Source: Pseudomonadota bacterium (GTDB lineage: Bacteria > Pseudomonadota > Alphaproteobacteria > Acetobacterales > Acetobacteraceae). From it: 33,959 bases of DNA. The notes under the pieces are model-generated. The model saw only the letters and a program-made list of their open reading frames with translations, made no database searches and had not been told where the DNA came from. Made by a program: the position numbers and the translations under genes. Where the stretch lies: positions 1 to 33,959 of the forward strand of contig JAFEFJ010000010.1 of NCBI GenBank assembly GCA_018240635.1. The letters run 5' to 3'. Numbering within the stretch: position 1 is the first letter of the stretch; every line of letters begins with the position of its first letter. Shown here piece by piece: positions 21,391 through 24,568 of the stretch.

Positions 21391-22113
21391 TCAGTACATG
21401 TGCTGGCCGCCGTTGATCGACAGCGTGGAGCCGGTGATGAAGTCGGCATCGTCGGCGGTCAGGAAGGCGACGCCGCGGGCGATGTCCTCGGCATGGCCGA
21501 GGCGGCCGACCGGGATGCGGGCGATGATCTTCTGCAGCACGTCCTGCGGCACCGCGCGCACCATGTCAGTATCGACATAGCCCGGCGCGATCGCGTTCAC
21601 CGTGATGCCGAAGCGCGCGCCTTCCTGCGCCAGCGCCTTGGTGAAGCCGTGGATGCCCGACTTCGCCGCCGCGTAGTTGACCTGCCCGTACTGGCCGGCC
21701 TGGCCGTTGATGCTGCCGATGTTCACCACGCGGCCGAACTTGGCCTGGCGCATCCCGTCGAAGGTCAGCTTGCAGAGGTTGAAGCAGGAGCCGAGGTTGG
21801 TGTCGATCACCGCGTCCCACATGTCGCGGGTCATCTTCGCCATCGTGGTGTCGCGCGTGATGCCGGCGTTGTTCACCAGGATCTCGATCGGGCCGAACTC
21901 CTTGGTGATCGTCTCGACCGCCTGCTTGCAGGCCTCGAAATCGCCGGCGTCGAACTTCATCACCTTGATGCCGGTGTCGCGGCTGAAGGCGGCGGCGGCT
22001 TCGTCGTTGCCGGCATAGCTCGCGACGACCGTGCGGCCTGCGTTCTTGAGGGCCTTGCTGATCGCGGCCCCGATGCCTCGGGTTCCGCCGGTGACCAATG
22101 CGACGCGCGCCAT
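21391..22113 (-). CDS. phaB: Acetoacetyl-CoA reductase (PHB synthesis)
   Basis: Reduces acetoacetyl-CoA to (R)-3-hydroxybutyryl-CoA, the monomer for PHB synthase. The 240-residue SDR shows the family-specific sequence: TGGTRGIG (8-15), NNAG (81-84), SINGQAGQYGQVNYAAAK with catalytic S134, Y147 and K151, and the ending GSTLSINGGQHMY, where the terminal HMY is diagnostic for PhaB. The basic residue in VVASYAGND rather than an acid after beta-2 fits NADPH use. The start at 22113 has an AGGGAGG nearby that is caught in a leader hairpin. It is not adjacent to phaA: a VOC gene and a CGNR regulator lie between. Confidence 0.95.
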   Translation of the reverse strand: MARVALVTGGTRGIGAAISKALKNAGRTVVASYAGNDEAAAAFSRDTGIKVMKFDAGDFEACKQAVETITKEFGPIEILVNNAGITRDTTMAKMTRDMWDAVIDTNLGSCFNLCKLTFDGMRQAKFGRVVNIGSINGQAGQYGQVNYAAAKSGIHGFTKALAQEGARFGITVNAIAPGYVDTDMVRAVPQDVLQKIIARIPVGRLGHAEDIARGVAFLTADDADFITGSTLSINGGQHMY

Positions 22114-22229: not shown

Positions 22230-22598
22230 TCAGCCGCGGTATGCCTCGATCCGGTAGCCGTCCGGGTCGATGACGAAGGCGGCGTAGTAATTGGGATCGT
22301 ACTCGGCGCGGATGCCTGGCTTGCCGTTGTCGCCGCCCCCCGCGGCGAGCGCCGCCTTGTGGAAGGCATCCACCGCGGCGCGATCGGGCGCGGCGAAGCA
22401 GATGTGCAGGCCGGATTTGGGGTCGGCGGGAACCGGGCTGTCGGTCTTCAGCAGCCAGAGATTCGCCGCGTCGCCGCCGTAGCCGGCCGACTCCTCACCG
22501 GGGGAAAGGCAGCGGTAGCCCAGCGGCGCCAGCACCGCGTCGTAGAACTTCCGCGCCCGCTGCATGTCGCGCACGCCGATCGAGAGATGGTCGATCAT
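22230..22598 (-). CDS. VOC family protein (glyoxalase/dioxygenase superfamily)
   Basis: A 122-residue single-chain vicinal-oxygen-chelate protein with the paired beta-alpha-beta-beta-beta modules. Metal-site candidates are H4 (MIDHLSIGV), a histidine in SGLHICFAA near residue 68, and E118 near the C terminus (GYRIEAYRG). Similar small proteins include glyoxalase-like enzymes and drug-binding resistance proteins; the substrate here is unknown. The GGAGGAG before the ATG is strong. It is divergent from a CGNR-type regulator, and a consensus-like promoter (TTGACA-N17-AATACT) lies between twin operator candidates. It is likely controlled by that regulator and may neutralise its inducer. Confidence 0.9.
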   Translation of the reverse strand: MIDHLSIGVRDMQRARKFYDAVLAPLGYRCLSPGEESAGYGGDAANLWLLKTDSPVPADPKSGLHICFAAPDRAAVDAFHKAALAAGGGDNGKPGIRAEYDPNYYAAFVIDPDGYRIEAYRG

Positions 22599-22617
22599 GA
22601 GTTCGTCTCCTCCATAT

Positions 22618-22639
22618 AACCGTTCAGGCGGTTAGTATT
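22618..22639. promoter_or_regulatory. Operator candidate copy 1, AACC-N8-GGTTAGTATT
   Basis: AACC (22618-22621), eight bases and GGTT (22630-22633) form an inverted repeat, here extended to TAACCG/CGGTTA, followed by AGTATT. An identical framework recurs 43 bp away at 22661-22682. This copy covers the predicted transcription start and -10 of the VOC gene, so binding would repress it. Confidence 0.55.
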
Positions 22640-22662
22640 CTGAGGCCGCGCCGCCTTGTCAA
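22634..22662 (-). promoter_or_regulatory. Promoter of the VOC gene
   Basis: On the minus strand a perfect TTGACA (22662-22657), a 17-bp spacer and AATACT (22639-22634) form a strong sigma-70-type promoter. Start is expected near 22627, leaving about 28 leader bases that include the GGAGGAG ribosome binding site. The promoter is bracketed by the two AACC-N8-GGTT repeats. Confidence 0.6.
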
Positions 22663-22682
22663 CCTGTAATGGGGTTAGTATT
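22661..22682. promoter_or_regulatory. Operator candidate copy 2, AACC-N8-GGTTAGTATT
   Basis: AACC (22661-22664), eight unrelated bases and GGTTAGTATT (22673-22682) repeat the pattern of 22618-22639 in the same orientation, 43 bp (about four turns) apart. It overlaps the -35 edge of the VOC promoter and ends 8 bp before the GTG start of the CGNR regulator, so it could serve both directions. Confidence 0.55.
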
Positions 22683-22690
22683 TCATAGGC

Positions 22691-23374
22691 GTGACCTCTC
22701 CCCGCCGCCCGGCCGACGCCGTGCTTCTGGCGGCGCCTGCCGACGCGCTGGCGGCCGATTTCGCGAACACGCGGTACTGGCGCGGCAGCAAGGCGCCGAC
22801 CGAGACGCTGACCGGGCCGGACGCGCTGCTTGGCTGGGCCGGGGAGGCGGCGCTGGTGCCGTCCGCCGCGCTGGACGCGATCCGCGCGGCGTGGCGCGCC
22901 CGTCCCGCGGCAGGCGACGAGGCGTTCGCCGCCGCGCTGGCGTGGCGGGAGGCGATCTTCCGCAGCCTCGCCGCCGTGAGCCGAAACGAGACCCCGGCGG
23001 CGGCCGACATCGCGCTGCTGAACGCGGCGCTGGACCGCGCGCCCTCCCGCCGCAGGCTCGTCGCGGGTCCGGAGGGCGCGGGATGGGAGGTGGACGGACT
23101 GGACGCCGGGGCGCCGGCGCTGCTGGCGCCCGTCCTATGGTCGGCGGGCGATCTTCTGCTCGGCCCGCGCCGGGCGCGGGTGCGGCAATGCGCGAACCCG
23201 GCCTGCGGCTACCTGTTCATCGACGACAGCAAGACCGGCAACCGCCGCTGGTGCGCGATGTCGGCCTGCGGCAACCGCGCGAAGGCGCACAGGCACTATC
23301 TGAAGCGCAAGGCGGCGGAGCAGGGAACGGACCCCACCGGCGCGCCCCCCTCGGTCGAGACCGAGAGGGGCTGA
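22691..23374 (+). CDS. CGNR zinc-finger (ABATE-domain) transcriptional regulator
   Basis: A 227-residue protein with the two-part layout of CGNR regulators: an N-terminal ABATE-type ligand-sensing domain (LAADFANTRYW at 20-30, through about 155) and a C-terminal CGNR zinc finger. The zinc ligands are C167, C172, C188 and C193, ending in the name-giving CGNRAKAHRHY. These proteins are thought to be stress- or ligand-responsive transcription regulators. The start is a GTG at 22691 with no Shine-Dalgarno; the upstream operator copy ends 8 bp before, so translation may be leaderless. It is divergent from the VOC gene, its probable target. A hairpin lies over the last codons. Confidence 0.9.
   Translation: MTSPRRPADAVLLAAPADALAADFANTRYWRGSKAPTETLTGPDALLGWAGEAALVPSAALDAIRAAWRARPAAGDEAFAAALAWREAIFRSLAAVSRNETPAAADIALLNAALDRAPSRRRLVAGPEGAGWEVDGLDAGAPALLAPVLWSAGDLLLGPRRARVRQCANPACGYLFIDDSKTGNRRWCAMSACGNRAKAHRHYLKRKAAEQGTDPTGAPPSVETERG
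23347..23370. terminator. Hairpin at the end of the CGNR gene, convergent with phaA
   Basis: CCCC-TCGGT and ACCGA-GA-GGGG pair around a CGAG loop, with a two-base bulge, within the last codons of the regulator gene and 26 bp before the phaA stop. The convergent junction is only 21 bp, so this could act as a compact two-way terminator. No T-run is present. Confidence 0.35.
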
Positions 23375-23395: not shown

Positions 23396-24568
23396 CTACC
23401 GCTCCAGGCACATGGCGACGCCCATGCCGCCGCCGATGCAGAGGGTGGCCACACCCTTGTGCGCGTCGCGCTTCTGCATCTCGTGCAGCAGCGTCACCAG
23501 CACGCGGGCGCCCGAGGCGCCGATCGGGTGGCCGATGGCGATGGCGCCGCCGTTGACGTTCACCTTGCTGGTATCCCAGCCCAGGTCCTTGTTCACCGCG
23601 AGCGCCTGCGCGGCGAAGGCCTCGTTGGCCTCCATCAGGTCGAGGTCGTCGAGCTTCCAGCCCGCGCGGGACAGCGCCTTGCGGGTGGCGGGGATCGGGC
23701 CGGTGCCCATCACCGAGGGATCGACGCCGGCGGTGGCGAAGGCGGCGATGCGGGCCAGCGGCTTCAGGCCGCGCTTGGCCGCTTCCGCGCCGCTCATGAC
23801 CACCACGGTCGCCGCGCCGTCGTTGATGCCGCTCGCGTTGCCCGCGGTGACGGTGCCTTCCTTCGAGAAGGCCGGGCGCAGCTTCGTCATCGCCTCGATC
23901 GTCGCGTCGTGGCGGATGTATTCGTCGTCGGCGACGACCACCTCGCCCTTGCGGCTCTTCACCGTGACGGGGACGATCTCGTCCTTGAAGCGGCCGGCCT
24001 TCTGCGCGGCCGAGGCCTTCTGCTGCGAGGCGAGCGCGAAGGCGTCCTGCTCGTCGCGGGTGATCTGGTAGGCCTTCGCCACGTTCTCGGCGGTGACGCC
24101 CATGTGATAGCCGTGGAACGTGTCCCACAGCCCGTCCTTCAGCATGGTGTCGATGAACTCGACGCCGCCCATCTTGGTGCCGGCGCGCAGATAGGCCGCG
24201 TGGGCCGACAGGCTCATGCTCTCCATCCCGCCGGCGGCGACGACGGCGCTTTCGCCCGTGCGCACCTGCTGCGCGGCCAGCGCCACGGCGCGCAGGCCGG
24301 AGCCGCAGACCTGGTTGATGCCGAACGCGGTCTTGCCGTCGGGGATTCCGGCCTCGCGGGCGGCCTTGCGGGCGGGGTTCTGGCCCTCGCCGGCGGCGAG
24401 CACCTGGCCCATGATCACTTCATCGACATCGCCCGCCTGCAACCCGGCGCGCTCGATGGCGGCGGTGATTGCGGTGGTGCCGAGGACATGGGCCGGCGTG
24501 GAGCCGAAGGCGCCGCTGAAGCTGCCGACAGGCGTGCGAACGGCGGAGACGATGACGACGTCGTCCAT
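23396..24568 (-). CDS. phaA: Acetyl-CoA C-acetyltransferase (beta-ketothiolase)
   Basis: Condenses two acetyl-CoA to acetoacetyl-CoA, the first step of PHB synthesis. The 390-residue biosynthetic thiolase has the acylated cysteine C88 ([10 protein letters not shown]), H347 (GHPIGASG) and the second cysteine C377 (CIGGGMG). Length and start ([17 protein letters not shown]) are standard, and GGGAG precedes the ATG. In many proteobacteria phaA directly precedes phaB in one operon; here both are on the minus strand but about 1.3 kb apart, with the VOC gene and an opposed CGNR regulator in between, so they need separate promoters. No PHB synthase or phasin is in the window. Confidence 0.96.

Follow-up and report, generated by a model that had tools for sequence, protein, structure and literature searches.

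Candidate operators with AACC half-sites at two spacings upstream of genes encoding CGNR regulators

The divergent VOC/CGNR pair and its twin inverted repeats

The window, that is, the whole analysed stretch of 33,959 nucleotides from a genome of the Acetobacteraceae, contains a pair of divergent genes separated by a gap of 92 bp. The gene on the minus strand (22230..22598), the candidate target, encodes a protein of the VOC/glyoxalase superfamily (122 aa; PF00903, 1.1e-8). The gene on the plus strand (22691..23374, GTG start) encodes a CGNR regulator of 227 aa with an ABATE domain (PF07336, 1e-17; residues 19-159, 65.4 bits against the Pfam cut-off of 24.4) and a zf-CGNR zinc finger (PF11706, 2e-17; 63.1 bits against 24). 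It is the only zf-CGNR gene found in the 4.47-Mb genome. The pair is flanked by genes encoding a thiolase (23396-24568, minus strand) and an acetoacetyl-CoA reductase (21391-22113, minus strand), resembling phaA and phaB of polyhydroxybutyrate synthesis, and transcription of the VOC gene may read through into the phaB-like gene. Among the compared loci, the same flanking genes were observed in L033 only.

The gap contains two copies of an inverted repeat with the cores AACC-N8-GGTT at 22618-22633 and 22661-22676. The corresponding candidate operators, which are not assigned to a strand, are O1 (22617..22634), TAACC-GTTCAGGC-GGTTA, and O2 (22660..22677), CAACC-TGTAATGG-GGTTA. As originally predicted, the twin copies have the same repeat and the same N8 spacing: the 22-base copies occupy 22618-22639 and 22661-22682 without a mismatch, their starts are separated by 43 bp, and the second one ends eight bases before the GTG codon of the CGNR gene at 22691. 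With at most three mismatches to the 22-base pattern, three matches were found in the window, compared to 0.19 expected, and none of 100 shuffled sequences reached three. The same threshold yields 21 matches in the 4.47-Mb genome, the only exact ones being the two copies. The core AACC-N8-GGTT occurs in this genome at ten places, two inside the gap and eight others, and the extended form YAACC-N8-GGTTR has one further exact place, C176, which was considered in the context of a wider regulon.

The predicted VOC promoter (22634..22662, minus strand) was also found as described in the original prediction, with the -35 box TTGACA (22657-22662), a 17-bp spacer (22640-22656) and the -10 box AATACT (22634-22639). 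The proposed CGNR promoter (22656..22684, plus strand) would consist of TTGTCA (22656-22661), a 17-bp spacer and a weak -10 box TATTTC (22679-22684), and its -35 box shares five bases with that of the VOC gene. The proposed -10 box ends six bases before the GTG codon, and thus the CGNR mRNA may be leaderless. The right end of O1 and the VOC -10 box have one base in common, the first of that box. The left half of O2 overlaps both -35 boxes, and O2 fills the spacer between the proposed CGNR -35 and -10 boxes. Hence the candidate operators overlap the predicted promoters of both divergent genes, and this geometry, together with conservation of the sites, would fit a divergent autoregulated repressor.

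The sites carry no direct information on the sign of control. CGNR could bind them and act as an activator, or activate one promoter and repress the other. This seems unlikely, as overlap of O1 and O2 with the -10 and -35 elements, and the placement of O2 in a promoter spacer, are usual for repressors. MerR-type regulators are known to activate from within the promoter spacer. However, the proposed CGNR spacer is 17 bp long and not stretched. Repression of both genes by CGNR is the preferred reading.

Divergent VOC/CGNR pairs are present in many alphaproteobacteria and in records of Burkholderia, Bordetella and Piscinibacter. After removal of three duplicates (L047, L048, L049), there are 30 distinct junctions at which the VOC gene adjoins a CGNR gene; L024 and L050 extend past the ends of their contigs, so that they were used for the junction count alone. 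The original prediction had staked itself on the motif being present at orthologous junctions, and the exact core AACC-N8-GGTT was found in all 30, O1 being among the sites kept in orthologues. Two or more sites are present in 22 junctions, or in 29 if one mismatch is allowed; L014 is the sole junction with a single site even at one mismatch. The distance between adjacent N8 sites, measured from their centres, falls within 37-55 bp in 29 of 31 cases and is most commonly 43-46 bp. In the Reyranella/Enhydrobacter-like group (L034, L037-L041, L043), successive half-sites at O1 make up two N8 sites that overlap and are offset by 8 bp. The combination of the -35 box and the operator, TGTCAACC-N8-GGTT, which places the VOC TTGACA on O2, is kept in 26 of the 30 junctions, and part of the conservation of TGTCAACC could stem from the -35 box alone. 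In many junctions the -10 boxes match only weakly, and TATTTC, proposed for the CGNR gene of the window, is a poor one.

The original prediction also included an AGTATT tail in the repeat. The tail is indeed present in both exact copies, but as a part of the motif it was dropped: in 84 N8 sites the first A after GGTT is 95% conserved, whereas the commonest base at each of the next three positions accounts for only 39-56%. The tail of the first copy is the VOC -10 box read backwards, and that of the second copy runs into the proposed CGNR -10 box. Judging by these sequences, the tail belongs to the promoters and not to the operator, and the candidate family motif is [TC]AACC-N8-GGTTA.

Association of the site with the regulator

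The VOC protein was searched against 299 genomes of the order, and 30 loci among the matches listed were compared. The site is present at all eight VOC homologues with a CGNR neighbour, and was not found within 250 nt of any of the 22 without one (Fisher p = 1.7e-7 for the listed loci). Sites with spacers 9, 18 and 19 were not found at these 22 loci either. Among the 22 genes, some at 50-60% identity may be paralogues; 14 encode proteins at least 60% identical to the window VOC protein, and these likewise have no sites. Thus the site follows the regulator rather than the enzyme. In the first set of CGNR loci described below, 12 CGNR genes that do not belong to the VOC group also have N8 sites. 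The divergent partner belongs to AzlC/AzlD, a family of branched-chain amino acid transport, in seven of the eight such genes tested, and L106 gave no family. In the tree of 107 CGNR proteins, the site is present throughout one supported group of 36 and also occurs in scattered members elsewhere.

A different regulator encoded elsewhere in the genome, for example of the TetR or MarR type, might bind the repeats and control the VOC gene, with CGNR as a bystander. The inverted-repeat form is, in general, common to many regulators. However, this explanation is very improbable given that the site is missing from VOC homologues without a CGNR neighbour, and that the same half-sites are found at CGNR genes adjoining AzlC/AzlD, EamA, MFS and alpha/beta hydrolase genes. 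Further, upstream of other long ORFs from the same loci sites were found in only 5 of 369 cases, a control set that includes spurious ORFs and accounts for the DNA and not for promoters alone. The CGNR protein itself remains the best candidate for binding the sites.

The zinc cysteines of this protein (C167, C172, C188, C193) are invariant across 55 sequences. The AlphaFold model, constructed with a 55-sequence alignment, has a pLDDT of 92.7, and its helix 190-210 bears CGNRAKAHRHY; the input to structure alignments was a hand-picked sample of 55 or 60 proteins from the 178 available. A Foldseek search with the model identified the fold of 3h0n (E 4.1e-6, TM 0.57/0.68) and no other match at E <= 0.001. 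The same entry, Jann_2411, is the sole match in PDB by sequence at E <= 0.01. Like the window protein, Jann_2411 combines ABATE with a treble-clef CGNR finger, although its own finger reads CQNR. In sections 3.1 and 3.2 of the Jann_2411 paper, a dimer was judged likely, the finger was considered probably DNA-binding, and a ligand was proposed for ABATE, with no operator given; from this one structure, the CGNR/ABATE family was predicted to consist of ligand-responsive DNA-binding regulators (PMC2954205). The inverted repeats would fit a CGNR dimer.

Spacer classes in the CGNR family

We analysed two sets of CGNR genes, with start codons assigned by rule. The first set was derived from 121 zinc-finger loci by removing 11 identical duplicates and three loci with less than 150 nt upstream (L016, L109, L135), leaving 107 genes. 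It is enriched in VOC relatives, as the query for part of it was either the window protein or the VOC protein. In the 58 genes of this set that have no N8 site, spacers k of 0-40 were considered between AACC and GGTT, and k=18 (16 sites in 12 genes) and k=19 (9 sites in 8 genes) stand out. Smaller numbers were observed at k=9 (4 sites in 3 genes), k=0 (4 in 4) and k=17 (3 in 3); the mean in shuffled sequences is about 0.2 per spacer.

As the 18/19 spacer was a discovery in the first set, a second set of 73 further CGNR genes was fetched, providing a fair test of this class. It comprises a phylum-wide draw and genes from Streptomyces, Embleya, Alicyclobacillus, Mesobacillus, Planococcus, Macrococcoides, Deinococcus, Pantoea and Chimaeribacter plasmids. 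The class was confirmed in these held-out data, with 15 sites in 11 genes at k=18 and 22 sites in 20 genes at k=19. Minor spacers are k=8 (5 sites in 4 genes), k=17 (3 in 2) and k=9 (2 in 2), and all other spacers up to 30 have 0-2 sites.

In total, among the 180 CGNR genes at k=1-30, there are 84 sites with k=8, 32 with k=18 and 33 with k=19, and 6 each with k=9 and k=17. AACC-Nk-GGTT with k = 8, 9, 18 or 19 is present in the region -250..+60 of 103 of the 180 genes. In shuffled upstream regions such sites were found in 2.2 genes on average and in seven at most, and within CGNR gene bodies in 2 of 180. Of the 103 genes, 47 have N8 sites only, 45 have N18/19 sites only, four have N9 sites only, and seven are mixed; the other 77 genes have no exact site at these four spacings. 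The proposal of a candidate motif for the CGNR family was correct but incomplete, as it lacked the second class with spacer 18/19, and its tail had to be abandoned. That the repeats are merely conserved promoter elements (-35 and -10), alike by chance, can be practically dismissed: TTGACA, TTGTCA and both AGTATT tails are promoter-like, but this leaves unexplained the mirror-image GGTT at exactly 8 bp, the presence of 84 sites at k=8 against one each at k=7 and k=10, and the absence of the site from VOC genes without CGNR.

N18/19 sites were found in records from Streptomyces tendae, S. griseorubiginosus, Embleya sp., Alicyclobacillus dauci, Planococcus lenghuensis, Deinococcus aetherius, Pantoea agglomerans, Chimaeribacter arupi and Rhizobium lentis, among others. 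Named records without such sites include those from Agrobacterium pusense, Sinorhizobium meliloti, Mesobacillus foraminis, Macrococcoides bohemicum, two other Deinococcus and several Streptomyces. With spacer 8 as with 18/19, both half-sites face the same side of the helix, and in the latter case they are separated by one more DNA turn. The centres of neighbouring N18/19 sites are separated by 36-57 bp in all 13 cases. These sites share an inner A/T pattern, approximately AACC-TGT-CAAA ... TTTA-GGTT, part of which resembles a -35 box. On a Streptomyces tendae plasmid (L154), the CGNR gene is divergent from a VOC-family gene and has two N18 sites in place of N8 sites.

With one mismatch allowed, the 77 genes without exact sites have 22 sites at k=18, 17 at k=19 and 15 at k=9 (mean 6.7, s.d. 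3.9). However, the counts are raised also at k=0 (18), k=23 (15) and k=17 (12), and thus the support for k=18, 19 and 9 from these sites is rather weak. At spacer 0 there are 18 sites in the first set, and AACCGGTT recurs where half-sites abut. Longer perfect N9 palindromes with altered arms were observed in L095 (GTAACC), L114 (GGCACC-N9-GGTGCC), L120 (GGAACC-N9-GGTTCC) and others; these perhaps represent subfamilies with changed half-sites.

One position of the finger differs between the classes. The tenth residue after the cysteine of CGNR, which falls in the helix 190-210 of the model, is Y in 43 of the 47 N8-only genes (and also in L011), and in the N18/19-only class (45 genes, 44 of them readable) it is R in 32. 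As a determinant of the spacer, however, this residue was rejected: on supported branches there is one independent pair (sign test p = 1). Since the two traits co-change too rarely on the tree, we do not claim that it sets the spacing.

The candidate regulatory mechanism

It is highly probable that O1 and O2 are the operators of the adjacent CGNR protein, which would bind them as a dimer, repress its own gene and the VOC gene, and be released by a ligand. The sequence itself shows where the sites lie, how they are arranged and conserved, and that they are linked to CGNR genes; dimer binding, repression as the sign of control and the ligand are inferred. A CGNR dimer would bind to each of O1 and O2, with one zinc finger per AACC half-site. 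As the sites overlap the VOC -10 and -35 boxes and the second copy fills the proposed CGNR spacer, binding of a single repressor is expected to close both promoters. Occupancy of O2 alone should block transcription of both genes, and occupancy of O1 would add to repression of the VOC gene. The ligand, presumably related to the substrate of the VOC enzyme, would be sensed by the ABATE domain and release CGNR from the DNA.

In kind, the candidate mechanism is that of an ordinary local repressor. As with divergent repressors of the TetR/MarR kind, which frequently control a small enzyme or an exporter, the regulator and its target are divergent and have a common promoter region that contains inverted-repeat operators. 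Unlike them, the CGNR protein has no helix-turn-helix: a zinc finger is its predicted DNA-binding part. The half-site, AACC at spacings of 8-9 or 18-19, is different as well.

For the family at large, it is fairly likely that CGNR proteins of Pseudomonadota, Actinomycetota, Bacillota and Deinococcota read the half-site AACC at 8-9 and 18-19 bp, often in twin operators approximately 40-50 bp apart at their own promoters, with the spacing set by protein geometry and the specificity of the finger retained. No CGNR operator was found in the literature searched; in a passage of PMC9976334, a CGNR gene is only listed in an expression table. The candidate operator of this uncharacterised family and its two spacings thus appear to be new, as far as searched.

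A conserved operator turns the prediction of DNA binding by CGNR proteins into a simple test. It also indicates likely targets, namely VOC enzymes, AzlC/AzlD transporters, EamA and MFS proteins and hydrolases, and hence points to ligands. The same half-site at spacings one turn apart is an attractive case in which dimer geometry may change while the specificity of the finger stays. If one half-site, at two spacings and often at the gene's own promoter, is indeed the rule, then, for many CGNR genes, the sequence is sufficient to identify the operator.
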